A stretch of DNA of 64,000 nucleotides from Strigamia acuminata (lineage: Eukaryota; Arthropoda; Chilopoda; Geophilomorpha; Linotaeniidae): the NCBI GenBank assembly GCA_949358305.1, contig CASHSZ010000048.1, forward strand, positions 103,001 through 167,000. Direction: 5' to 3'. The position numbers were made by a program, and so were the translations under genes. Shown piece by piece: positions 24,249 to 64,000 of this stretch. Position 1 is the first letter of the stretch, and every line of letters begins with the position of its first letter. A model generated the notes under the pieces. The model saw only the letters and a program-made list of their open reading frames with translations. It searched no databases and was not told the origin of the DNA.

Positions 24249-24771
24249 TGTTGGAAATAAGTTTCTTTTGTAGGCAAATAAGTTGCATGTCCGAGTATGT
24301 TCACCTTACCAAGCGTGTTAATTGCGCGATGATATCTGGCGCGAGTTTATGGTTTATCGCGCCATTAGTACAACGTGCCTTTAATTGTTCAGTGTATTTG
24401 TATTACCTGCCCTGAGTTGCGAATTTGTATAATACGCAGGAATACTGTACGTGCATTTAAGTGACATTGTTGTTAAATACATTTGTGTATTTATATGCGT
24501 TAAGTTTATGTATATTATCTGGCATTTGTAAGATTATAAATGCCATGCCAAATGTATTTCCGTATTGTTTGCATTTTACATGATTTGTTCTATGTTCAAC
24601 ATTTATGTGATCATAAGTCACCTGATCAATGATTCTATGTAACTCATAAATGATTTGTTCTGTATGCACTCTTGAGTTGAAAACCATGATTAAACATGGC
24701 CACCGCCTGTGCGGATTTTTGGCAAAGCCAAATATGCTGTTTTGGACTTACACCATCATTTATTTTCCACA
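24249..24771 (+). repeat. 5' LTR of copia element 1
   Basis: Begins tgttggaaataag and ends ttattttccaca; the same 523 bp recur at 30,732-31,254 (offset 6,483) with no difference seen by eye. Candidate core promoter motifs are tataat at 24,428 and tataaa at 24,535, and an attaaa at 24,689 could serve polyadenylation; none can be chosen from sequence alone. The short reading frames inside (for example 24,457-24,687 on the - strand) are duplicated exactly in the other LTR and are not taken as genes. Confidence 0.95.
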
Positions 24772-24772
24772 T

Positions 24773-24790
24773 TGGTAGCAGAGGGTGGTT
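24773..24790 (+). promoter_or_regulatory. Primer-binding site for initiator Met tRNA
   Basis: One base after the 5' LTR lies an 18-base sequence starting tggtagcagag. It pairs with the 3' end of the animal initiator methionine tRNA (…CCTCTGCTACCA) at 17 of 18 positions, with one G for A. This is where minus-strand DNA synthesis would be primed from an intact tRNA 3' end, rather than the internal half-tRNA site used by Drosophila copia. Confidence 0.9.
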
Positions 24791-26026
24791 CTCTGTAAGT
24801 CCAGCGTGAGTTTCGTGGCCAAATTCGAACTCAGCGCGAAATTCTGACCAGGAACGCATATTTTCGGCAACCACGGACATCGCGCACGACCCGGGCGGAC
24901 CGTAGAGACAGAAACCAGGCATCGACGAACGTCTGAAGTGCGTCGTTTAGCAGCGAAGCCAAGTTCGGGGCGGCAACGACGGAATTACTCGTTTTTGGAC
25001 GGGTTTCAAGCGTTTTTCGACGCTGGAACCACAGCGTTTTTGCCGACAGCGGTGAATATAATATATATTAACATTCTTTTTGATTATTTAACAGTTGGAA
25101 ACTGTTAAACCATGCTGGACTGTGCATTTTCACCGAGACCGTCTTTTCCAAAATCCAAGATGGCGGCGCCCGTCTTATAAGTGTTTGCGCAGTATCAACA
25201 CACATTTATCGTGGTTTTTGGATTGATTTGGACATTCAGCGGTGAGGATTACTTTATTTAATGAACATATTTATTGTTTGGATCGTTTTCGCGCTGGTTT
25301 TCAACGGAATTCGACCAGATTTTCGTCATTTCAAGCGCACGGAGATCGTCGGCAATTTAGCGGCGATTCAACGACGTACGACGTACGTTTCTTCGCGCAC
25401 ACGTTTCGACAACGTGCTTGGAAGCTCCGTGGACACTCCCAGGAGCATTTACGAACGTGAAACGTTCATATCATCCACTGGAAAAGCCGCAATTTGCACA
25501 ACGGCAATTGCGAAGTCGCGAACGATCGCGATTGTGTGCGAGGAAGGAAATTCCGCACACACACGAGCCTGTACCCCGGCGTACTATCGTGCTACGAGGG
25601 AGCGACCAGCTGCCAGCTTGGGGATCGTTTTGCGACGCACAGTCCCGCAAATACACGAATCATCTCAACTTTGCCAACTTCACATCGATTTAAGTGCATT
25701 TAGGGGTTCGAAATTACTTGTCATTAGTTATTTAAGGTTTTGGTTGGGCCCTTTAGTGTGTTTGGCACCCTCTAGTCAGTCGACTAGTGCCATCCTATTT
25801 CTGCACAGGCTTTCCCTGGCCACCGAGTGTCCCGCGGTCCTAGGAGTCCGGTCGGAACTCGGGGGATACTGTGTAGAGTTTTGCATCTCACTTAGTGAGA
25901 TTTGTCCTAGGGTGGATTGTGATATTTCGCCTAATTTTTGGGGGAATTTACTGTGTCTTCAGATTATTTTCGTGAAAGTGTTTGTGCAAAGTGAATTGTG
26001 CTACGGTATTATTTTGAAATTTGATC
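24791..26026 (+). other. Untranslated leader of copia element 1
   Basis: 1.2 kb between primer-binding site and Gag-Pol start, long for a copia leader. It contains a YY1-like site (25,157), a 15 bp odd-centred palindrome at 25,374-25,388 (arms acgtacg / cgtacgt), and a 263-codon open frame (25,261-26,052) that overlaps the Gag start in another frame. Packaging and dimerisation signals are expected in this part of an LTR element, but none can be assigned. No domain was recognised in the upstream frame. Confidence 0.75.
25157..25167 (+). promoter_or_regulatory. YY1-like site in the leader
   Basis: The 11 bases aagatggcggc match the known consensus for the zinc-finger factor YY1 (AANATGGCGGC). 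YY1 sites near the start of other retroelements, such as mammalian L1, help position transcription starts. Here the site lies about 390 bp downstream of the LTR, so a similar role is only a possibility. A chance match is also plausible. Confidence 0.35.
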
Positions 26027-29000
26027 ATGGCAGCCGGCGATTGGAAATTTGAGGACTTTTCAAAGCCATTCGCCCCTAATATACGTAAACTTGATGGGAC
26101 GAATTATGAATCGTGGGCAACCAACATGCAGCTAATTCTAGAGCAGCAAGGCACGTGGAATCACGTGGTGGGCGATGAGCCAGCGTTAACGGCTGCGGCC
26201 ACACCACGCGAGATACGTGACTTTAAGACACGTGAACATAAAGCACGTTCCTCGATTTGTTTAGCTTGCGCAGAAGCGCAAAAGGTTGTTGCTGTTGCTC
26301 ATGCGACTTCTAAAAAGGCATGGGACGCATTGAAGGAAGCCTACCAACCCACGACCATGGCTAGACAAGCAAGGCTTAGGAGAGAATTTCTACAAATGAA
26401 ATTGGCACCCGATGAGGAAATGGTCGTGTTTACGGCACGTGTAGATAGAAAGGCGGCAGAACTTAAAGACGTTGAAATTGTTTTGGAAGACAAATTTATT
26501 GCATTTCAATATTTGGATTTCTTGGGTCCAGAATGGGAAGGACTCAAGCAACAAATATACCACTGGGACAAAGCCGATTTCACGACGGCAAAAGTGCGTG
26601 AAAGGCTTTTAGCGGAGTACAACCGCACCCACGCGGGATCTTCTGATAGTTCTGCAGTGCCGTCGACAGGAGCTTTTGCTAGTGGACAGCCACAACAACA
26701 AGGAAAAGGACTTATTTGTTTTAATTGTGGCGGGAGGGGCCATTTCTCGCGAGATTGTCCCACCCCGAAGCAACAAGGCTCTGCACCGATGCAGAAAGTG
26801 AGCTCGAATGTCGCACAGTCGCGCGGCCGTGGTCGTGGACGCGGTCGATCACGTGGCAAGAAGGCTAATCTCAGCGCATCTGAAGAATTGGTGAACTTTT
26901 ACACGTCGCTTCATCAAACTGTCGGACAATCTTCGATGCCAGTTGCCTCATTTGTTTCTTCGGGCCACAAAGACATGTCGTGGTACATAGATACCGCCGC
27001 GACCGACCACTTTACATTTTGTAAACACGGGTTTATCGATTTCAAACCGCTTACCAATTATACTGTTCGCCTTGGAGAAGGATCCTCCAAGATTGAGGGT
27101 GTAGGCAGTATTAGACTGGAATCAGCTACTAAGGCTGATGGCCACCCATTTGTATTGCGCAACGTTTTCTATGCGCCAAATTTTTGTAAAAATTTAATCT
27201 CGTTGGGGCGAACAGACGAAGCTGGTTTCATCACCCGTGTTGCAAATGGGAAATTGGTCGTGTTTAAAGAGAAGATCACCGAGCCAGTACTGACTGCGTG
27301 GCGGCAATCAGATAGAATGTATAAAAGTTCATGTCAGATACCGGCTCTTACTGTAAACACAACGGCAATTTCGACGCCCTCGAATGCAGTTGTTGTAGGT
27401 GATCAATTGACTAACACACTTAATATTGTTGAAAATGCTAATGTTGTTAACCAGAGTGCACTAATTTCTCCAGCGAGTGTGAGCGAAACGCAGCAAGCGA
27501 GTGATAGTGCGAAGCCAGCGTATAGTGAGGTGCTTAAAGCACCGCCGCAAGCGAAAGGGGCAGCGGGTACCGACACGGTCGCGAATTCCACTAACGACTT
27601 GGGGCTTTTGCAAGCAAACACAACGGGGAATGCACTCCAGCAGGAGAAAGCATTAGATATCTCTTACTGGCATGGCCGGATGGGTCATTTTCATACAGCG
27701 GGCATTTTGGAAATGCAGAAGTCCACAGACATTTTTGGTGTTAAATTGACAGATGGGAAATTGAACCAATGCGACGCATGTATGCGCGCTAAGAAGACTA
27801 GGGCCTCTTTTCCCCCTATTGGAGTTATTGCCACAAAAGACATCTTAGAACTAGTCCATATGGACGTTTGGGGCGCATCTAAAACCAGATCCCTTGGAGG
27901 GGGCACTTTTTATTTAATAATTATAGATGATTTTTCGCGCTATATGTGGATTAGAATTCTTAAGAAGAAAAGTGATGTTCTGGATGTTTTCAAGACGTGG
28001 CAACGTGAGATTGAGAGGCGAACCTCGAGGAAGGTTAAGACAATTAGAACCGACAATGGGGGTGAATTTGTCTCCAGGGCCTGGGATGATTACGCGGGTC
28101 AGGAGGGGATAAAGTGCGAGCGCACTAATGCGTACACCCCCGAGATGAACTCCATTGCCGAGCGTGCAAACCGGACAATTTTAGAGGGGGCACGTGCAAT
28201 GATGTTTGAAAGTGACTTCCCTAAACGATTATGGGGGGAAATGGTGGTCACGATTGTCTACCTTAAGAATCTCCTGCCGCATCCTAAATTGGGCAATAAA
28301 TCACCATATAATGTATTACATAATAAGAAGGTATCTGTTCGACATCTGCGCTGTATCGGGTCAAAGTGCTACGTGCACATCCCTAGCCAACAAAGAAAGA
28401 GCAAGCTAGAGGAGAGGTCTTGGTGTGGGGCCCTAGTGGGTTACAGTACAGAAACTCAGGGTTATAGAGTTTGGGACCCCATTCGCAATAGTGTACATTC
28501 GTCAAAACACGTGACTATCAATGAGGAACAGTTTTGGTATGAGAAGAGTACCAATGGGGCTCCTATTCCACACATGAGTAATAATGAGGATTTAGTCCCT
28601 GACCTAATGGGAGATGATTCCGATGAAGAGATTCTAACCACGGGTCCCCCAGTACCTCAAGAAGAAATCCCAGCCAAACGGCCCATAAGCCCACATAATG
28701 AGATATTTAATCTGATACCGGATAATTTGGTTTTACCAATAGTGGCGCCACCACTACCAGATACCCCAAAACCTTTGAAGGGACCCCAACTTAAGCCAAA
28801 GCTGATTGAATTTGAGCCTAGATTCGATTATGTAGATGAATATGAGGACGAAGAGTTGTTTCAAGAAGCACTGTTGGCTTCTCCTAATGTAAGAGGGGGT
28901 CAACAACAAGTTGCTGCGGGAGGGGTACCTTTATTGAAACTAGACATGAGTTTATGGCAAGTGAAAGGATACGTGCGCTTGACAGGCAGGGATGCCGGTG

Positions 29001-30709
29001 TGAAATATGCTCACTACATCGCACCCGATAAAACACGTATCAGAAGCCGAGTAGAAGCATTGCGCTGGTGTGAGAACACCGGACACGAGTATGATCCGGA
29101 ACTTTTTGACTTCACGGGCAAGTCCCTCGACCAAGAAGTTCCCAATCCCTTTGCAATGTTTTGCGCATTAGAACCAGACACCTATGAAGAGGCCATACAG
29201 GGTCAATACAAAGAGGATTGGAAAAGCGCAATGCAAGAGGAGGTTGACATTTTTCAAGAGAGAAAAGTTTATGAAGAAGTCGATTGTCAAGCCAACCAAC
29301 CTCTGTTAGGGAGCAAGTGGATATACAAGCTCAAAAGGGACGATACAGGGACAATTCAACATCACCGAGCTAGGCTCGTGGCCCAGGGCTTCAAACAGCG
29401 TCCTGGGATTGATTACAACGAGGTTTTCTCCCCCGTTGTAAATTTTGTGTTAGTCCTTGTATTCTTTTGTATGCTCGTGATCCTCATGGGTTGGCGGGAC
29501 GTACATATCGACATCAAAGCGGCCTATCTCTACGGAGATTTGGACGAGCCCCAACTAATGTCCATCCCAAAGGGTTTCCAAACAGCTGAGAACGCTGGAA
29601 AGTGTTGGCGACTGCTGAAGGCATTATATGGGCTTCACCAGTCGGGAAGAATGTGGTTTGAAAAGCTACATGAAAAGCTTTTGGAAATAGGGTTCCGACC
29701 GGTTCCTGGTTTCAATTGTGTTTACACAATGGACCGGGATGTGGTTTTAATAGTATACGTGGACGATATCGTTGTATTTTCTCGAAATGAGTTTATTGAA
29801 ACTGACGTACTTTCTTGTATTGCTAAGTATTTCGAACTGGTAAACCTTGGACCGGTCACCCTACTTTTGGGAATCCAATTTGACAGGTCGAACGGCAAGA
29901 TTGTTATCCATCAACAGAACTATATTCAAAAGCTTTGCAAGCAATTCGGAGTTGATGGTTCCAATCGTGTTCGTTTGCCGGGAGCAGTGGGAACTGAGAT
30001 TGTTGGAGTTAAGAAAGATGAAATACCTGAGGTTAAATTCCCGTACCGATCACTGATTGGTAGTTTGTTATTTCTGGCATCGAGAACAAGACCAGACATT
30101 CTGTTCTCCACAATTGTACTTTCACAGTACAACGAGGCCCATTCCCAAAGGCATGTGAACATGCTTATGCAAGTACTCAGGTACTTGAAGACAACAGAGC
30201 ACTATGGCATCAATTTGTCCAGATGCAAAAGTGCATTCTTATCAGTCTTTACAGATGCGTCTTACGCAACTGATGTTGAACAGCGGAAGAGTTTCGGGGG
30301 CCACATCGTGTTTTTAGGCGGCATTCCAATTTCTTGGTCATGCCGCAAACAGAAAATGACAACTTTGTCAGTTATGGAGTCAGAGTTTGTTGCCATCGTT
30401 GATGGTGTACGAGAACTAGTTTGGCTCCGACGTTTTTTCGCTATGCCCATTATGCGCGACTATTTTGGCGATCTAAGACCGTGCGTAATGGCGGACAGCA
30501 CTGCCGCCATTCAATATAGTAAGAATCGCGTAGAGAATAAGTCAAACAAGCACATCGAGGTGCGCTTTCATTTTCTGCGCGATCTTTACGAGGCGAAAGT
30601 GTTTGATATCAAACACGTAATGGGCAAGCTTAATACAGCTGACTTACTGACGAAGTGGTTAGCAAGCCCGAGGCTTACACAATTATGCGACAACATTTTC
30701 GACATGTAA
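26027..30709 (+). CDS. Gag-Pol polyprotein of copia element 1 (1,560 aa), with an MBD-like insert
   Basis: Single frame for all element proteins. The start is taken at the ATG at 26,027 (context atcATGG); the frame can be extended only two codons to a TTG, not a likely start in an animal. In order: UBN2/DUF4219-like Gag (about 15-195); zinc knuckle CX2CX4HX4C (C231, C234, H239, C244); RGRGRGRG basic patch (about 266-279); aspartic protease D322-T-A-A-T; integrase zinc finger (H549, H554, C582, C585) and D613-D676-E712 with D-35-E spacing; MBD-like segment (about 969-1032); reverse transcriptase with D1162 and YVDD (D1246, D1247); RNase H (D1410, ESEF, D1490, D1539). Length and order are normal for copia. 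Oddities: Ala replaces Gly in the protease D-[ST]-G signature; the Arg normally found in PVV…IR before motif A of reverse transcriptase is Leu; and VYM after YGDL is changed to QLM. All listed catalytic acidic residues are present. Processing would be by its own protease in virus-like particles (family knowledge). Confidence 0.95.
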   Translation: MAAGDWKFEDFSKPFAPNIRKLDGTNYESWATNMQLILEQQGTWNHVVGDEPALTAAATPREIRDFKTREHKARSSICLACAEAQKVVAVAHATSKKAWDALKEAYQPTTMARQARLRREFLQMKLAPDEEMVVFTARVDRKAAELKDVEIVLEDKFIAFQYLDFLGPEWEGLKQQIYHWDKADFTTAKVRERLLAEYNRTHAGSSDSSAVPSTGAFASGQPQQQGKGLICFNCGGRGHFSRDCPTPKQQGSAPMQKVSSNVAQSRGRGRGRGRSRGKKANLSASEELVNFYTSLHQTVGQSSMPVASFVSSGHKDMSWYIDTAATDHFTFCKHGFIDFKPLTNYTVRLGEGSSKIEGVGSIRLESATKADGHPFVLRNVFYAPNFCKNLISLGRTDEAGFITRVANGKLVVFKEKITEPVLTAWRQSDRMYKSSCQIPALTVNTTAISTPSNAVVVGDQLTNTLNIVENANVVNQSALISPASVSETQQASDSAKPAYSEVLKAPPQAKGAAGTDTVANSTNDLGLLQANTTGNALQQEKALDISYWHGRMGHFHTAGILEMQKSTDIFGVKLTDGKLNQCDACMRAKKTRASFPPIGVIATKDILELVHMDVWGASKTRSLGGGTFYLIIIDDFSRYMWIRILKKKSDVLDVFKTWQREIERRTSRKVKTIRTDNGGEFVSRAWDDYAGQEGIKCERTNAYTPEMNSIAERANRTILEGARAMMFESDFPKRLWGEMVVTIVYLKNLLPHPKLGNKSPYNVLHNKKVSVRHLRCIGSKCYVHIPSQQRKSKLEERSWCGALVGYSTETQGYRVWDPIRNSVHSSKHVTINEEQFWYEKSTNGAPIPHMSNNEDLVPDLMGDDSDEEILTTGPPVPQEEIPAKRPISPHNEIFNLIPDNLVLPIVAPPLPDTPKPLKGPQLKPKLIEFEPRFDYVDEYEDEELFQEALLASPNVRGGQQQVAAGGVPLLKLDMSLWQVKGYVRLTGRDAGVKYAHYIAPDKTRIRSRVEALRWCENTGHEYDPELFDFTGKSLDQEVPNPFAMFCALEPDTYEEAIQGQYKEDWKSAMQEEVDIFQERKVYEEVDCQANQPLLGSKWIYKLKRDDTGTIQHHRARLVAQGFKQRPGIDYNEVFSPVVNFVLVLVFFCMLVILMGWRDVHIDIKAAYLYGDLDEPQLMSIPKGFQTAENAGKCWRLLKALYGLHQSGRMWFEKLHEKLLEIGFRPVPGFNCVYTMDRDVVLIVYVDDIVVFSRNEFIETDVLSCIAKYFELVNLGPVTLLLGIQFDRSNGKIVIHQQNYIQKLCKQFGVDGSNRVRLPGAVGTEIVGVKKDEIPEVKFPYRSLIGSLLFLASRTRPDILFSTIVLSQYNEAHSQRHVNMLMQVLRYLKTTEHYGINLSRCKSAFLSVFTDASYATDVEQRKSFGGHIVFLGGIPISWSCRKQKMTTLSVMESEFVAIVDGVRELVWLRRFFAMPIMRDYFGDLRPCVMADSTAAIQYSKNRVENKSNKHIEVRFHFLRDLYEAKVFDIKHVMGKLNTADLLTKWLASPRLTQLCDNIFDM
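28931..29122 (+). other. MBD-like domain within Gag-Pol of copia element 1
   Basis: Residues about 969-1032 lie in the linker between integrase and reverse transcriptase and follow the methyl-CpG-binding domain pattern. There is a Trp start, then R-x-x-G-R-x-A-G, K-Y-x-x-Y, a short turn, I-R-S-R-V-E (the R-S pair equivalent to MeCP2 R133-S134), and a C-terminal D-P-E-L-F-D-F (compare D-P-x-D-F-D-F of MeCP2). The aspartate equivalent to MeCP2 D121 is Ala (KYAHY instead of KYDVY), so methyl-CpG selectivity may be weakened. Alignment was made from memory of the family, without a search. Confidence 0.75.
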
Positions 30710-30720
30710 GCTTGTTTGCT

Positions 30721-30729
30721 AAGAGGGGG
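30721..30729 (+). promoter_or_regulatory. Polypurine tract of copia element 1
   Basis: The run aagaggggg lies two bases before the 3' LTR and 11 bases after the Gag-Pol stop codon. It is where an RNase H-resistant primer would start plus-strand DNA synthesis. Confidence 0.9.
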
Positions 30730-30731
30730 TA

Positions 30732-31254
30732 TGTTGGAAATAAGTTTCTTTTGTAGGCAAATAAGTTGCATGTCCGAGTATGTTCACCTTACCAAGCGTG
30801 TTAATTGCGCGATGATATCTGGCGCGAGTTTATGGTTTATCGCGCCATTAGTACAACGTGCCTTTAATTGTTCAGTGTATTTGTATTACCTGCCCTGAGT
30901 TGCGAATTTGTATAATACGCAGGAATACTGTACGTGCATTTAAGTGACATTGTTGTTAAATACATTTGTGTATTTATATGCGTTAAGTTTATGTATATTA
31001 TCTGGCATTTGTAAGATTATAAATGCCATGCCAAATGTATTTCCGTATTGTTTGCATTTTACATGATTTGTTCTATGTTCAACATTTATGTGATCATAAG
31101 TCACCTGATCAATGATTCTATGTAACTCATAAATGATTTGTTCTGTATGCACTCTTGAGTTGAAAACCATGATTAAACATGGCCACCGCCTGTGCGGATT
31201 TTTGGCAAAGCCAAATATGCTGTTTTGGACTTACACCATCATTTATTTTCCACA
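30732..31254 (+). repeat. 3' LTR of copia element 1
   Basis: Copy of the 5' LTR at offset 6,483, same 523 bp length, no difference seen by eye. It ends …ttccaca directly before the right target duplication. Confidence 0.95.
31172..31177 (+). promoter_or_regulatory. Candidate polyadenylation signal in the 3' LTR
   Basis: attaaa, the common variant of AATAAA, followed about 40-50 bases later by a T/G-rich stretch (tgctgttttgg). The canonical AATAAA was not seen on the + strand of this LTR, so this is the best candidate for 3' end formation of the element RNA. Confidence 0.35.
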
Positions 31255-56150: not shown

Positions 56151-56534
56151 CTCGTATTCGACTCGTTTTCGAGTCGAATGCAAATTTTGCCCTTCTTCAA
56201 CGCGAAATCGTATTCGACTTGTTTTCGAGTCGAATGCAAATTTTGCCCTTCTTCAACGCGAAATCGTATTCGACTCGTTTTCGAGTCGAATACGAGTTTT
56301 GCCCTTCTTCAACGCGAAATCGTATTCGACTCGTTTTCGAGTCGAATGCGAATTTTGCCCTTCTTCAACGCGAAATCGTATCCGACTCGTTTTCGAGTCG
56401 AATACGAGTTTTGCCCTTCTTCAACGCGAAATCGTATTCGACTCGTTTTCGAGTCGAATGCGAATTTTGCCCTTCTTCAACGCGAAATCGTATTCGACTC
56501 GTTTTCGAGTCGAATGCGAATTTTGCCCTTCTTC
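56151..56534 (+). repeat. 56 bp CpG-rich tandem repeat, left part
   Basis: Seven units with the core gttttcgag at 56,165, 56,221, 56,277, 56,333, 56,389, 56,445 and 56,501, exactly 56 bp apart. Each unit contains the hairpin attcgactcg-tttt-cgagtcgaat (10 bp arms) and about eight CpG dinucleotides. Since 56 is not a multiple of three, long frames in several registers arise here automatically and are not genes. The array is split by copia element 2 and resumes at 63,351. Confidence 0.95.
56530..56534. repeat. Target-site duplication, left copy (tcttc)
   Basis: tcttc precedes the + strand left LTR and recurs at 63,346-63,350. Removing the 6,811 bp element plus one copy puts the next 56 bp unit core exactly in phase (56,501 + 56 corresponds to 63,373). 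Confidence 0.95.
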
Positions 56535-57006
56535 TGTAGCAGAGGAGTGCGCTCACAGTATAAAATACTGTGTGTGGAAGCGAGTTTAAATGCCGAAACA
56601 CGGCTAATATGAGCGCGATGACGTGCGCGCACCTCCAGCGCTTGAAAATGGTGGAAAATAAAGTCACTGCACTCTAAAGTGCTCATGAGTGACAAACACA
56701 ATGTAAAAATAAACTAAATGTTTAATAAAAACGAAAATGCTTACATAATGTGGTCCATTTAGATGGAGAAAATACATGAGTGCTTGCTGGCATGCAAGCG
56801 GCCATTGTGATTGTGAAAAACATACATGCACACCATCTGGTGTTAATAATAAGTAATACAAAAGTAAACAGTATAGAGGCAGCATTATGCCCAATGTTAA
56901 ATAATGAAAAGAAGTCTAAATAAATACACTAGGCTGCATAATGCAGTAATACATTAAGAAATGCGCAAAACAAGTACGGAGGACTGTTTGGCATCGATAA
57001 ACAACA
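56535..57006 (-). repeat. 3' LTR of copia element 2
   Basis: 472 bp, ends TG…CA in element orientation (tgttgtttatcg … ctctgctaca). Matches 62,874-63,345 at offset 6,339 with a single substitution at 56,750. Near its downstream end is a hairpin cacagtat-aaa-atactgtg (8 bp arms). Frames inside (for example 56,664-56,894) are duplicated in the other LTR and not considered genes. Confidence 0.95.
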
Positions 57007-57017
57007 ATTTCCCCCTT
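57007..57017 (-). promoter_or_regulatory. Polypurine tract of copia element 2
   Basis: aagggggaaat on the - strand, directly next to the 3' LTR. It is the expected plus-strand primer site. Confidence 0.9.
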
Positions 57018-57216
57018 CGATGGCAAATAGCCGCAAAAATAAAGAATAAGTTAAGGGAAAAACTTTAAATGTAACTTTACATAGAATAATAATAATGGAA
57101 ATAATAATTCGGAACATCGAGCCGGGTACTGTTATATTAATCACTACGGAAGCCCGAAAATTCCCACTGGAACTCGATGATCCTCAAAATTCGGGAAAAA
57201 AACAAAATTAAGAATG

Positions 57217-60200
57217 TCACGATAGGTTGAAATTGAAAATCCGGGAAATCAGGAGACGCAGTTGAGATGATCCCAACCATTTGGTAAAAATGTCTGCCAC
57301 GTTCATTGATCCGGGGACTTTGCGCAATTGGAATGCACCTGCTGTGTACCATTCCCGAATCCAATGAAATTTCACTCGGATATGTTTTGTTTTACTGTTC
57401 TCCACGTCATTTGATGTGAATTGGATGGAAGAAAGCGCATCGGAGAACACTAAAGGTGGTGAAGATCTATTCAGCATCGGGACGGAACTGTAGACGTAAT
57501 CCAGCCAATAAAGCTCACGGACGCACTCAACGAGTGCGACAAATTCCGCCTCCATCGTTGAGCACGCCACGCTGGTTTGTTTTCTACAACTCCATCCGAT
57601 GGGGACGTTTCCAATATAAGCTATATACCCGCCGAAACTCAAAGAAGTGCTGACTTCGGTGGCCCAGGACGCGTCAGTATATCCCCATAGTTGTCCATTG
57701 GAACAATTTGACAGTTCAATTGCATAATCCAAAGTATTACCTACATAGCGCACAACCTGCATGAGCGCCTTGATGTGAGTGTGGTTGTAGCAATTGTTGA
57801 ATTGTGACAACATTATCACTGAGAATAATATATCAGGTCGTGTCCTCGATGCGAGGAAGAGAAGAGAGCCAATTAACGAACGATAAGGAAATTCTGGCAA
57901 GTCCTCTTTCGACCCTTTGACGAGCGTCGTTCCTGGTGTTACTGGGACCTTGATGAGTTTATCGGCGACAATTGCAAATTTCTTGAGAATCTTCTGTATG
58001 TATGCACGTTGGATGATGAAGATTCCCTTGGGAGTACGAATGAACTCTACACCTAAAAGTTTTGTAATTGGTCCTAAATTCACGACATCGAATTTGGTGC
58101 TGATGAGCGCAATTAATTGTGTAAGGACGTTATCCGTCGCGTAAAATAGAACTATATCATCGACGTATATTAGCATCACGGCGGAAGTTCCGTATATGTA
58201 TACACAGTTGCATCCTGGTAATCTGCGAAATCCTAAATCGCGCAATGTTTGATCTAATTTCTCAAACCATTGGCGCCCGGACTGGTGGAGACCATAGAGC
58301 GACTTTATCAGGAGCCATACATGATTTGGATTTGAACATGTTGCGCCAGCTGGAATGCGCATATATACTTTGTGCGCAAGATCGCCGTATAGGTACGCGC
58401 ACTTCACATCTAAATGCGCATCCTTCCACCCTTTGAGGACTACTAATAGGCAGAAGAATAGGCGTATGAGAACAAAGTTGACAACAGGGCTAAAGACTTC
58501 ATCGTAGTCTACACCTAAAGTTTGGCGAAAGCCCTGTGCTACTAATCTGGCGCGATATCTGGCTGGTTTGCCTAGAGCATCTTCCTTCAGTTTGAAGAGC
58601 CACTTGCACCCTAATATGGTTGTATTTTCCGGTTTAGGGACCTCTTCATAGACGCCTCTTTCTGCAAAAGTGTCTAACTCTTCATTAATGGCTTCCTGCC
58701 ATTTGGTTGCATCCGGAAATCTTACAGCCTCTGCGTAACTTGTGGGATCACGACGACAAAGGTGTACTCTGGGAAGTGGTGGCGGAAGATTCTCTAATTC
58801 ATATTCCATGTTGCCAAAATAAAATAGTTCAGGATCATAAGGAATGTTGTTCATGTGACAGAATTCCTCAACGTCACCTCTAGAACGTAATCGGAGTCCT
58901 GCTTCTGGGAAATAATAAACATCGACTTTGAGTTTTCCAGGTTCCTGTACTTTGCGCAAATGTTCCTCCCTTTTCCAGTGTCTACACTCAGTATCTCCAC
59001 CAATGTAACGCCATTTATATGCAGTTGCAGCTCCAGTTGGAGGTGGACCATGGTGGGCTGCTTGATGAGCTTGTGGCGCATTTCCACGAGAGCCTCGACG
59101 AGCATTTACAAAACTCGGAGGTGAACCAGGTGGTGTATGACTTGGTGTATTGCCGGGAGTAATAACTGGACTCGGCACTGGTGTTATTACTGGAGTAATC
59201 AAAGGGGCTCGAATAGGAGATCCCGGAGTTGGAGTGGCTGGTGGAGTCCGGAATTGAGCACCCGCTGGGGTCGAATCGTCAGAGTCATAGTCCGTATCAC
59301 ATTCATCCTCTGAATCCGGAAATTTGGGCCAATCAGTATATTCCAGTCCGTCGTCAAACCTCACATGCGGTTGTGAAATGCGCAATGGTTGATAAGTTTG
59401 CGATGTTTGATGCGATTGGTCCTCATCTGGTCCCATCCACGGTTGCTGCGGACCTCGATAATGGTTGGAACGTTTGTAGGATTGCCGTTCGTCAATTTGG
59501 ACGTGAATGGATTCGATGACTTTGTTATCTGTTGGATTCCAGACGCGATAACCTCGCGTTGTCGTGGCGTATCCAACCAAATAGCCCTCCCAAGCTCGTG
59601 GATCCAATTTGTCCCTGCCAGGAGCCGTGTGATGTACCCAGCATTTGGAGCCTAACTTCCGGAGGTGTCGGAGCGAAAGGGCACGTCGTCGCCACAAAAT
59701 ATAGGGCACCTCATTTTTGAGACGAGAATGAGGGCACCGGTTCTTTATATAAGAGAAAGTTACTGCGAATTCCGCCCAAAGTTCATTCGGAAGTCCGGTT
59801 TCGTCTAGGATGGCACGCGTGTAATCCGCCATGGTGCGGTTTATTCTTTCCGCTGTGCCATTCATAGCGGGACTATGTGGATTGGTCCGTTGGGCTTGAA
59901 TCCCAGTTTCCTTTAAGTAGCGGTCGAATTCGTTTGATAAGAACTCCCCTCCTCGGTCAGTTCGGATGGCCTTCACTCGTTTGCCCGTCACTCGTTCGAT
60001 TCGTGTGACGTAGTCTTTGAACAATCCAAATACTTGGGATTTTTGAGCCATCGGAAATATCCAGGCATAGCGCGTGGCGTCGTCGATAATCGTTAGCACA
60101 TAACGCGCGCCTCCGTAGGAAGTCGTTCTTGATGCTCCCCACACGTCCATGTGTAGGAGATCTAAAGCCTTTGTAGAAATAGGATGTTCATCAGGTTTAT

Positions 60201-62022
60201 GGGAAATGCGCGTTGATTTCGCAATTCGACAATGATTACACGAAAGTTCCTTGTTCACTTCTGCCGGTGTCACTCCATAAACTTGGTTATTTCCGGCCAA
60301 AAGTTTCATTGCATTGGTGTGAAGATGACCCAATCTGCTGTGCCATATCCCAGTCGCATCCTTTTTAACCGTAGGCGCTGCAACTTTCTTTTGATTCGCC
60401 GACTTTAGATTCGGTTTGGAAGTTGGAGGAATTGCCTTTAATGTGTCGGCAAAGGATGGGACTTGAGGTAATGGATTGGTAGGAACAGGTACAGGAGGTG
60501 TCTTGGACTGGGTTACTTTGATTGGTGCAGGTGGAGGAATTTCATTTGGCAAAGGAGGGAATTCGAGCCGAAAATCAGTAAAAAGTTCAGGATTTTTCGA
60601 CTTTTTCTTTGCTCTTGGATACTGGATGAAATCCTCTTCTGTCGTGACTAATGTTCGGGTCGGAGCGATTGACTGCGCAATAGGTACATCCACTGTTGAC
60701 ATCAGTGTTGAAGGTGGGCACAAGCCATCGACATAATAAAGGCCGCCCTTTTCTTTGGCCCGAAGCATTGGATGCTTAATGTCGGATTTGTAGACATAGA
60801 CGTCTCCATTCCAAATATGGATGTGATGTTTAGTTTTGTCCATTTTTGACACTGAAATCAAATTCGCCTCGAATTTTGGCGCATACAACACATCTTGGAG
60901 ATTTACGACACATTCTACGTTGTTGATCATGGAGATAATCTGGACTTTGCCCTTTCCTAGAACTTCGGAATGTCCTTGACCTAATGCTATGTTAAAGGGC
61001 ACAACTTTAACAAAGTCCTGAAACCAAGCCTGGACGTGGCACACATGATCTGTTGCCCCACAATCCACGATCCATTCATGTGATTGCATGAAGTGAATTG
61101 TGGGCAACTGTTGCGGAGCACTTGCGAAAAAGTTTGTTTCTCGTTTTGCGCTGGAATTCCCCCTTGGTCTAGAATCATCTCGGTTTGAGTTCTTATTGCG
61201 TTTATGGCTTGAACTCCTCGGCTTCCTTTGAAGTGAAGCTGCCGGTTGATTCTTGTCATCTCGGCGCGATGGCAAAGGACATTTATTTGCGTAATGGCCA
61301 AATTCCTGGCAATTAAAACACTGCACCGAAGATAACGGTCGAGAGGGACGAGAACGATTTCTCCCACGTTGCTGTTTTTCACCAGCATATGCACGAGAAT
61401 GTTTTGAATTGTCCACGTCGCGTGAATCCATAGCTTTGAGTCGCATATGTTCCGCGAGTAACTGTTCGGACACTTTCTTTGGTGTGAATTCACCTTTGGG
61501 CAAGTGATATGTTGTGAATGAAATCTGTGAATATTCACGAGGCAATAAGTCCAAGTATTGGTAAGCGTGGTGATCAGGCGAAGTTATCTCTCCGATATCC
61601 TTCATTTGGCGGACATGATAGTCAACGCGTCCTAAGAAGTCGGCCATATCTTCGCCCTGCTCTAGGCGCAAATTCAAAAATTCGCGGCGCATGGCTGCCT
61701 GTCGCGCACGAGATGATGGCGCATAAATGTTGGCTAAGATGTCCCATGCTTCCTTCGGGGTTTTACAATCATCCAGCGCAGACTTCTTCGCCTCGCTTAC
61801 AGAACAGTATATTAAGCCTAATGCCTTGGCTTTACGACGCTTGTACTTCTTTTTCTCTTTGTCCCCAGCCGTTTTAAGGAAATCTTCCTCCTCTTCTTCC
61901 GTTACGTGTTCCCACAATTCCTCGCTTCGGAGTACCATGCGCATTGAGCGCTGCCAAAGTTCGTAGTTTCCTACGCTAAGGATGGGAAGACGTCCTGGAT
62001 TTCCGTCTGCGGACTTTGACAT
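57217..62022 (-). CDS. Gag-Pol polyprotein of copia element 2 (1,601 aa), with an MBD-like insert
   Basis: One open frame from the ATG at 62,022 (gtcATGTC) to TGA at 57,217. In order: UBN2-like Gag (about 10-195); zinc knuckle C235, C238, H243, C248 followed by a basic Ser/Arg-rich tail; protease D320-C-G-A-T; a Pro-rich stretch; integrase zinc finger (H561, H566, C595, C598) and D626-D689-E725 with D-35-E spacing; a Thr/Pro-rich linker (about 925-970); MBD-like segment (about 1003-1071); reverse transcriptase with D1205 and YVDD (D1288, D1289); RNase H (D1450, EAEF, D1528, D1577). All listed catalytic acidic residues are present, and the IR and VYM motifs of reverse transcriptase altered in element 1 are intact here. 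Cys replaces the usual Ser/Thr in the protease D-[ST]-G signature. It would copy element RNA into DNA and integrate it, in virus-like particles (family knowledge). Of the two copies this one looks more likely to be functional. Confidence 0.95.
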   Translation of the reverse strand: MSKSADGNPGRLPILSVGNYELWQRSMRMVLRSEELWEHVTEEEEEDFLKTAGDKEKKKYKRRKAKALGLIYCSVSEAKKSALDDCKTPKEAWDILANIYAPSSRARQAAMRREFLNLRLEQGEDMADFLGRVDYHVRQMKDIGEITSPDHHAYQYLDLLPREYSQISFTTYHLPKGEFTPKKVSEQLLAEHMRLKAMDSRDVDNSKHSRAYAGEKQQRGRNRSRPSRPLSSVQCFNCQEFGHYANKCPLPSRRDDKNQPAASLQRKPRSSSHKRNKNSNRDDSRPRGNSSAKRETNFFASAPQQLPTIHFMQSHEWIVDCGATDHVCHVQAWFQDFVKVVPFNIALGQGHSEVLGKGKVQIISMINNVECVVNLQDVLYAPKFEANLISVSKMDKTKHHIHIWNGDVYVYKSDIKHPMLRAKEKGGLYYVDGLCPPSTLMSTVDVPIAQSIAPTRTLVTTEEDFIQYPRAKKKSKNPELFTDFRLEFPPLPNEIPPPAPIKVTQSKTPPVPVPTNPLPQVPSFADTLKAIPPTSKPNLKSANQKKVAAPTVKKDATGIWHSRLGHLHTNAMKLLAGNNQVYGVTPAEVNKELSCNHCRIAKSTRISHKPDEHPISTKALDLLHMDVWGASRTTSYGGARYVLTIIDDATRYAWIFPMAQKSQVFGLFKDYVTRIERVTGKRVKAIRTDRGGEFLSNEFDRYLKETGIQAQRTNPHSPAMNGTAERINRTMADYTRAILDETGLPNELWAEFAVTFSYIKNRCPHSRLKNEVPYILWRRRALSLRHLRKLGSKCWVHHTAPGRDKLDPRAWEGYLVGYATTTRGYRVWNPTDNKVIESIHVQIDERQSYKRSNHYRGPQQPWMGPDEDQSHQTSQTYQPLRISQPHVRFDDGLEYTDWPKFPDSEDECDTDYDSDDSTPAGAQFRTPPATPTPGSPIRAPLITPVITPVPSPVITPGNTPSHTPPGSPPSFVNARRGSRGNAPQAHQAAHHGPPPTGAATAYKWRYIGGDTECRHWKREEHLRKVQEPGKLKVDVYYFPEAGLRLRSRGDVEEFCHMNNIPYDPELFYFGNMEYELENLPPPLPRVHLCRRDPTSYAEAVRFPDATKWQEAINEELDTFAERGVYEEVPKPENTTILGCKWLFKLKEDALGKPARYRARLVAQGFRQTLGVDYDEVFSPVVNFVLIRLFFCLLVVLKGWKDAHLDVKCAYLYGDLAHKVYMRIPAGATCSNPNHVWLLIKSLYGLHQSGRQWFEKLDQTLRDLGFRRLPGCNCVYIYGTSAVMLIYVDDIVLFYATDNVLTQLIALISTKFDVVNLGPITKLLGVEFIRTPKGIFIIQRAYIQKILKKFAIVADKLIKVPVTPGTTLVKGSKEDLPEFPYRSLIGSLLFLASRTRPDILFSVIMLSQFNNCYNHTHIKALMQVVRYVGNTLDYAIELSNCSNGQLWGYTDASWATEVSTSLSFGGYIAYIGNVPIGWSCRKQTSVACSTMEAEFVALVECVRELYWLDYVYSSVPMLNRSSPPLVFSDALSSIQFTSNDVENSKTKHIRVKFHWIREWYTAGAFQLRKVPGSMNVADIFTKWLGSSQLRLLISRIFNFNLS
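58810..59016 (-). other. MBD-like domain within Gag-Pol of copia element 2
   Basis: Residues about 1003-1071, between the Thr/Pro-rich linker after integrase and the reverse transcriptase. The core D1034-V-Y1036 … G1042 … R1046-S1047 aligns without gaps to D121-V-Y123 … G129 … R133-S134 of MeCP2, and an Arg-Lys pair sits near the R111 position. The segment ends D-P-E-L-F-Y-F, as in the family C-terminus. Unlike element 1, the aspartate is kept, so base contacts could be preserved. Recognised by eye; no profile search was possible. Confidence 0.78.
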
Positions 62023-62853
62023 GACGTGGAGTTACGAAACAATCCGTAGCAAAACACACTGGATGGAGAATGGTACAATTGGAGCACTTGACGGTCTCGG
62101 TGCACAATATCGCGTGGCACTACACAAATACGGCGCACTGATCGAAGCACTGTCAAAGCGGATATCAATCGAATTGGGCGACCACTTCTGAAGTGGTCAG
62201 ATAACCCTAGCCAGCCAACACACAGGGGTCCGTTCGCCTGCCTGGAGGCGCGGGAGTACCTGTTGGCCACGGTAAGCACTGGCTAGGAATGAGTTAATGC
62301 GGTAGTTCCGACTGGAACAGAAGAGCAAAAACTATTCTAAAGGGCCCCCAAAACCTTAAATATATCTTAAAATTAACAAGCTTATTACGACTACTGAAAA
62401 GGAATTTTTAATCAGTATGATGAGACGTTGCTCCAATCTAGAGATGAAAATGGCGTAGTTGCGCATTTAAAATGCGAAAATCGTCGAAAAATCGTCGATA
62501 CAACGACCGTACACGGTGTACTAAGTCGGGAATTAGTCCAAATCGTCGTTCACGCTGTGTAAAGCGGGTTTCCAACGTTGATTCTCGTTGGAAAATGGCG
62601 AAAATCTGGAAATAAATTGAAATTCGTCTCGAAAATTGCGAAACCCGCAGAAATCCGGACGAAATTAAATGAAAAATCGTAGAGCTGGTCGTGCAGACTA
62701 CGTGAGAACGTCGGCGTGTCGTCTCGAACGTTCTAGAGACGAAAATCGTCGCGGAAATCGGCGCAATCTGCAAATAGAAAATTTATCGCAAATTCGCGAA
62801 TTTCGCGAAAATGGCGATAAAAATTAGCGGTTTCGGCGTGCTGCAAGGATAGC
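62023..62853 (-). other. Untranslated leader of copia element 2
   Basis: 830 bp between primer-binding site and Gag-Pol start. It contains a 19 bp palindrome at 62,180-62,198. The part from about 62,450 to 62,820 is rich in cg and gaaaa/cgaaaa motifs. A 102-codon frame (62,279 to 61,971) overlaps the Gag start but has no recognised domain. Packaging signals are expected somewhere in this region but cannot be assigned. Confidence 0.75.
62180..62198. repeat. 19 bp palindrome in the leader of element 2
   Basis: gaccacttc-t-gaagtggtc, perfect 9-base arms around one central base. In RNA the central base is too small a loop for a hairpin, so intermolecular pairing is one possibility; function unknown. 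Confidence 0.6.
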
Positions 62854-62871
62854 AACCATCCTCTGCTACCA
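62854..62871 (-). promoter_or_regulatory. Primer-binding site for initiator Met tRNA (element 2)
   Basis: On the - strand, two bases after the 5' LTR, tggtagcagaggatggtt matches the complement of the animal initiator Met tRNA 3' end at all 18 positions. It is the same primer choice as element 1, here without its one mismatch. Confidence 0.92.
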
Positions 62872-62873
62872 CT

Positions 62874-63345
62874 TGTAGCAGAGGAGTGCGCTCACAGTAT
62901 AAAATACTGTGTGTGGAAGCGAGTTTAAATGCCGAAACACGGCTAATATGAGCGCGATGACGTGCGCGCACCTCCAGCGCTTGAAAATGGTGGAAAATAA
63001 AGTCACTGCACTCTAAAGTGCTCATGAGTGACAAACACAATGTAAAAATAAACTAAATGTTTAATAAAAACGAAAATGCTTACATAATTTGGTCCATTTA
63101 GATGGAGAAAATACATGAGTGCTTGCTGGCATGCAAGCGGCCATTGTGATTGTGAAAAACATACATGCACACCATCTGGTGTTAATAATAAGTAATACAA
63201 AAGTAAACAGTATAGAGGCAGCATTATGCCCAATGTTAAATAATGAAAAGAAGTCTAAATAAATACACTAGGCTGCATAATGCAGTAATACATTAAGAAA
63301 TGCGCAAAACAAGTACGGAGGACTGTTTGGCATCGATAAACAACA
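62874..63345 (-). repeat. 5' LTR of copia element 2
   Basis: 472 bp, 471 identical to the 3' LTR at 56,535-57,006. It would carry the promoter for the element RNA, running towards lower coordinates. No TATA box can be chosen with confidence. Confidence 0.95.
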
Positions 63346-63350
63346 TCTTC
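63346..63350. repeat. Target-site duplication, right copy (tcttc)
   Basis: Matches 56,530-56,534 and is followed by aacgcgaaatcg, the continuation of the interrupted 56 bp unit. Confidence 0.95.
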
Positions 63351-63618
63351 AACGCGAAATCGTATCCGACTCGTTTTCGAGTCGAATACGAGTTTTGCCC
63401 TTCTTCAACGCGAAATCGTATTCGACTCGTTTTCGAGTCGAATGCGAGTTTTGCCCTTCTTCAACGCGAAATCGTATTCGACTCGTTTTCGAGTCGAATG
63501 CGAATTTTGCCCTTCTTCAACGCGAAATCGTATCCGACTCGTTTTCGAGTCGAATGCGAGTTTTGCCCTTCTTCAACGCGAAATCGTATTCGACTCGTTT
63601 TCGAGTCGAATACGAGAT
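63351..63618 (+). repeat. 56 bp CpG-rich tandem repeat, right part
   Basis: Five more units with cores at 63,373, 63,429, 63,485, 63,541 and 63,597, in phase with the left part once the element is removed, giving twelve units in all. Unit differences are mostly at CpG or one base from it (tgcgag/tacgag, tattcgac/tatccgac). Confidence 0.95.
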
Positions 63619-63769: not shown

Positions 63770-64000
63770 AATCGTAAACGAATCGTTTACAAGTCGTATA
63801 CAAGTTGTATACGACGTGTATACACCTCGTATACGAACGAAGTTTGGAAAATCCACCGGATACTTACTACGACATGAAAACACATAGTAGTCACATACGT
63901 CTTATTTGGAAATTGTGTTTTCACAAACTTCGTTCGTATACGAGGTGTATACACGTCGTATACAACTCGTATACGACTTGTAAACGATTCGTTTACGATT
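63770..64000. repeat. Large inverted repeat (foldback) running off the window
   Basis: The 76 bases at 63,770-63,845 (starting aatcgtaaacgaatcg) are the reverse complement of 63,925-64,000 with one mismatch, around a 79-base centre. Within the arms, short palindromes (gtatac, cgtttac/gtaaacg) recur about every 10-15 bases. The right arm reaches the last base, so the true repeat is probably longer. It could be the core of a foldback transposon or a palindromic satellite unit; no coding sequence is visible. Confidence 0.9.

Follow-up and report, generated by a model that had tools for sequence, protein, structure and literature searches.

Two young copia retrotransposons with a predicted methyl-CpG-binding domain after the integrase in a 64-kb stretch of Strigamia acuminata DNA

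According to the title of a published study, a family of arthropod retrotransposons has captured a functionally active methyl-CpG-binding domain (MBD) (de Mendoza, Pflueger, Lister 2019, Genome Res 29:1277-1286). Here, we describe two copia elements, elements 1 and 2, found in a 64,000-bp stretch of the centipede Strigamia acuminata (assembly GCA_949358305.1, contig CASHSZ010000048.1, positions 103,001 to 167,000 of the forward strand; hereafter the window), each with a putative MBD between the integrase and the reverse transcriptase (RT) of its Gag-Pol polyprotein. The published family, reportedly a Copia family like the elements described here, is said to be named CopiaMBD and to occur in spiders and in Strigamia, a centipede. 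Its MBD is reportedly derived from the host and binds CpG-dense methylated DNA, and its young copies are said to lie in CpG-dense regions in a centipede, with a different bias in a spider. In other arthropods, copia elements are preferentially methylated and accumulate in CpG-dense regions, according to a passage of PMC11721087 that cites the 2019 study and another one and in which the MBD is not mentioned.

Other known systems resemble these elements in part. Chromoviruses (Ty3/gypsy elements with an integrase chromodomain) also have a chromatin reader near the integrase, and theirs directs insertion to heterochromatin (Gao et al. 2008 Genome Res); however, they belong to another superfamily, and their domain has another fold and reads histone methylation, whereas the one described here would read DNA methylation. 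Retrotransposons with captured cytosine methyltransferases likewise acquired a host epigenetic part (de Mendoza et al. 2018, Nat Commun 9:1341), but theirs is an enzyme that writes methylation and not a predicted reader; neither MBD nor methyl-CpG occurs in the main text of that paper. The host proteins MeCP2, MBD2 and MBD4 are similar to the element MBDs in profile and at the level of residues, but here the domain sits inside a Gag-Pol polyprotein.

An MBD within a retrotransposon polyprotein, the trait that by its title defines the 2019 family, was found in both elements, and the CpG-dense location of element 2 is a further likeness. Element 1 differs from that family in a changed D-V-Y motif and a CpG-free insertion site. 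The best reading is that both elements are members of the 2019 kind, to which they were matched by description and of which they may be the published copies themselves. The phenomenon is thus already known and has been in print since 2019. The first-pass annotation of element 2 had implied that it was new; its assignment of the domain stands, upheld by profile matches, PDB sequences and the second element, while the novelty is not supported in view of the 2019 publication (Genome Res 29:1277). Prior description was one of the grounds for refutation that the annotation itself had named, and as regards novelty it applies. Our literature search returned no paper joining PF01429 with RVT_2, nor one joining Copia, MBD and Strigamia. 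Searches of IMG/VR (with the MBD piece and with an MBD-to-RT alignment) and of prokaryote genome contigs gave no confirmed relative, which is expected for a eukaryotic element and uninformative on its spread.

We consider it likely that element 2 is a young and complete copia element of this published arthropod kind, carrying after its integrase a host-type MBD that is predicted to steer integration. Its features are the following (LTR, long terminal repeat; all positions are those of the window):
56535..63345, minus strand: element 2, complete copia LTR retrotransposon, 6811 bp (LTR and flank comparison)
56530-56534 and 63346-63350: target-site duplication TCTTC, 5 bp, on both flanks
62874..63345, minus strand: 5' LTR, 472 bp (LTR comparison)
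56535..57006, minus strand: 3' LTR, 472 bp (LTR comparison)
62856..62871, minus strand: primer-binding site TGGTAGCAGAGGATGG, 2 nt inside the 5' LTR
57007..57018, minus strand: purine-rich tract, adjoining the 3' LTR
57217..62022, minus strand: Gag-Pol, 1601 aa, uninterrupted
59869..60171, minus strand: integrase core (rve), residues 618-718 (Pfam match)
59476..59685, minus strand: integrase SH3-like domain, residues 780-849 (Pfam match)
58816..58977, minus strand: MBD (PF01429), residues 1016-1069, between integrase and RT (Pfam profile)
57940..58653, minus strand: RT (RVT_2), residues 1124-1361, with YVDD (Pfam match)

The full-length protein of element 2 matched PF01429 in hmmscan with 22.8 bits (E 7.1e-5), the curated cut-off of Pfam for this family being 21 bits. 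The 69-aa piece in which the first-pass annotation had recognised the domain (residues 1003-1071; 58810..59016, minus strand) reached 28.3 bits by itself (E 1.4e-6), and a 113-aa piece 27.0 bits (hmmscan). When the 69 residues were shuffled, none of eight shuffles matched the MBD and two weakly matched other families, the better one at E 0.017. NCBIfam gave no family for the MBD piece of either element. The order integrase, MBD, RT was borne out by hmmscan, and the motifs on which the assignment had been based (D-V-Y, G, R-S and D-P-x-L-F-x-F) are all present in element 2. The alignment to MeCP2 had been called gap-free, but HMMER placed one extra residue before D-V-Y, both for element 2 against MBD2 and for a profile of the two elements against MeCP2, and in the latter alignment one residue before D-P is also omitted.

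Element 1, the second copia element of the window, has the domain at the same position of the polyprotein:
24249..31254, plus strand: element 1, copia element, 7006 bp, inside a 140-bp satellite (LTR and flank comparison)
24249..24771, plus strand: 5' LTR, 523 bp (LTR comparison)
30732..31254, plus strand: 3' LTR, 523 bp (LTR comparison)
26021..30709, plus strand: Gag-Pol, 1562 aa counted from TTG (first ATG at 26027), uninterrupted
28955..29125, plus strand: MBD, residues 979-1035, same polyprotein position as in element 2 (Pfam profile)

A 100-aa piece of element 1 matched PF01429 with 25.3 bits (E 1.2e-5), above the 21-bit cut-off. Compared with sequences of the PDB, the element 1 piece found MeCP2 at E 0.0024, and 26 of the 29 entries listed were named MBD or MeCP2, the others being two L3MBTL3 chains (E about 1) and one 'attachment region binding protein', which we take to be chicken MeCP2. 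For element 2, all nine PDB sequences listed were MBD2 or MBD4. The two-element profile reached MeCP2 at E 1.1e-4, and all but one of the 27 entries listed for it were named MBD or MeCP2, the remaining one being the 'attachment region binding protein'. As whole polyproteins, both elements are 37% identical. Identity between them was 51.7% in the RT (123/238), 22.7% in the linker before the MBD (30/132 aligned residues), 34.8% in the MBD core, residues 1023-1069 (16/46; 33.3%, or 16/48, over the Pfam range), and 21.7% in the stretch just after it (5/23). This rise within the MBD is modest and comes from small numbers, and much of it is contributed by Y-D-P-E-L-F, a run of six identical residues. 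A stronger case for a real domain is made by the match of one Pfam family at one place in two distant relatives. Taken together, the profile, the PDB sequences and the diverged second element support the identity of the domain as an MBD at the level of sequence. Since the diverged element 1 has it in the same place, the MBD belongs to a lineage and is not a one-off, and the simplest reading is one capture before the two lineages separated.

Membership of copia was evident in both elements. In hmmscan, the order of Pfam matches was gag_2, CCHC, BBD, pre-integrase, rve, SH3, MBD and RVT_2 in each of them, so that the integrase precedes RVT_2 in a single polyprotein, as in copia. Each has paired LTRs (472 bp and 523 bp) with TG..CA ends and a 5-bp target-site duplication, which is GTGTT in element 1. 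Integrase has its catalytic D, D-x35-E, RT its YVDD and RNase H its D, E, D, as seen from a motif check and from the columns that the two elements have in common. The primer-binding site begins with TGGTAGCAGAGG in the two elements alike, presumably complementary to the initiator tRNA-Met of animals at its 3' end, as we also take TGGTAGCAGAGGATGG of element 2 to be. Both elements are young and recently inserted, because their LTRs are identical at 471/472 positions (element 2, one mismatch) and 523/523 positions (element 1) and 5-bp target-site duplications are present. In the protease region, where the motif is usually D-S/T-G, element 2 reads W-I-V-D-C-G (61045-61074) and element 1 W-Y-I-D-T-A (26981-27010). 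Element 1 has a further open frame of 263 aa (25261-26052, plus strand) after its 5' LTR and ahead of Gag; it is possibly due to chance, and hmmscan gave no Pfam match for it.

The two predicted readers differ at the residues by which MBDs contact methyl-CpG, namely two arginines, a lysine, an aspartate, a tyrosine and a serine. These presumably correspond to R1023, R1046, K1032, D1034, Y1036 and S1047 of element 2, where all six are kept. In the HMMER alignment of element 2 with MBD2, K-V-D-V-Y-Y-F stands opposite K-S-D-V-Y-Y-F and L-R-S opposite F-R-S. Element 1 keeps both arginines (R986, R1008) and the serine (S1009), and it reads K-Y-A-H-Y where element 2 has K-V-D-V-Y. The residue opposite the aspartate is A according to MAFFT or Y according to HMMER (against MeCP2, ungapped there), so that the aspartate is lost either way. 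Of this set, the two arginines, the aspartate and the tyrosine are all found in element 2, but in element 1 the aspartate is absent.

The landing sites were compared next to the following repeats:
3-55791: tandem array of a 140-bp unit (satellite), most of the window
56152..56534: CpG-dense 56-bp tandem repeat, left of element 2
63346..63616: CpG-dense 56-bp tandem repeat, right of element 2

Element 1 lies within the 140-bp array and element 2 just beyond it, where its insertion divided one 56-bp tandem repeat with a near-palindromic unit and a CpG observed/expected ratio of 2.8. Counted over 100, 200 and 400 bp of flank to the left and right, element 2 is surrounded by 14.5, 14.25 and 13.62 CpG per 100 bp, respectively. 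Around element 1, the 100-bp and 200-bp flanks have no CpG at all, and the 400-bp flanks have 0.25 per 100 bp. In the satellite, the CpG observed/expected ratio is 0.10-0.11 and TpG and CpA are in excess. Among 339 monomers, excised at an anchor word after discarding those that lacked it or whose length was not 130-150, two positions with a TG consensus retain CG in 49 and 104 monomers. This CG/TG variation is as expected from the decay of methylated CpG; it is weak evidence for methylation in the host, because the satellite is one repeated sequence. At the end of the window, an inverted repeat (63770-63851 / 63919-64000) has 82-nt arms that are 96% complementary and 67 nt apart, and is perhaps a foldback or MITE-like (miniature inverted-repeat transposable element) element.

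In the mechanism that we favour, the MBD would remain attached to the integrase after processing of the polyprotein. It would bind methylated CpG in host chromatin and tether the pre-integration complex there, and integration would in this way be biased to methylated, often CpG-dense DNA, as the chromodomain does in chromoviruses. The analogy with chromodomain targeting, drawn by the first-pass annotation, is a reasonable one. Element 2 fits such CpG targeting; element 1 does not, and its reader may be weakened, which with one insertion each is no more than a lead.

Several results weigh against this reading. The AlphaFold models of the MBD region were of low confidence, with a mean predicted local distance difference test (pLDDT) of 46.9 (with long flanks) and 55.1. 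Foldseek gave 79 matches in the PDB at E <= 10, none of them at E <= 0.001 among the 50 matches listed; the top row was AtMBD5 at E 1.6, and the matches listed were MBDs mixed with unrelated chains. The full-length protein of element 1 scored 20.6 bits against PF01429, just below the cut-off of 21, and the best single PDB sequence for the element 2 piece was MBD2 at E 0.028. Finally, the CpG-free landing site of element 1 runs counter to a simple CpG-targeting role.

An MBD-like fold might have been kept while the reading of methyl-CpG was lost, at least in element 1, so that the domain would now act within the integrase as a simple binder of DNA or protein. We regard this as possible but unlikely: the missing aspartate of D-V-Y under either alignment and the CpG-free 200-bp flanks of element 1 speak for it, but the six presumed contact residues kept in element 2 and the two arginines of element 1 do not. 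It is also improbable, in our estimation, that a real MBD has no steering role and anchors the polyprotein, or else the pre-integration complex, to methylated DNA of the host to another end, for example to mask those copies of the element that are methylated or to dislodge the host's MBD repressors. Located between integrase and RT, the domain could go with either product after processing, and element 1 did land in CpG-free DNA; on the other side, the published family reportedly has its young copies in CpG-dense DNA. The accumulation of copia in CpG-dense regions of other arthropods, as given in the passage of PMC11721087, also disagrees with a domain without steering role. That an unconserved linker resembles the MBD profile by chance, which the E-values of 0.028 or worse for the element 2 piece against single solved sequences, the poor models and the modest rise in identity would allow, is very improbable and was rejected on the E-values of both pieces at one position in two elements so far diverged, the match of the two-element profile to MeCP2 and the shuffles.

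We retain as the preferred reading a host-type MBD that is predicted to steer the integration of element 2. A more specific idea, that mutation of the reader retunes the choice of target, with the intact contact set (element 2) leading to CpG-dense repeats and the one without aspartate (element 1) to a CpG-free satellite, is doubtful, with two insertions that fit it. If retrotransposons read DNA methylation, they would illustrate how parasites of the genome exploit the marks of their host to pick a landing site. To the published kind, the window adds two young members that share a single 64-kb stretch; their coding frames are uninterrupted, their predicted readers differ and their CpG surroundings are opposite, and elements 1 and 2 are thus a natural pair for asking whether the residues of the reader set the target.
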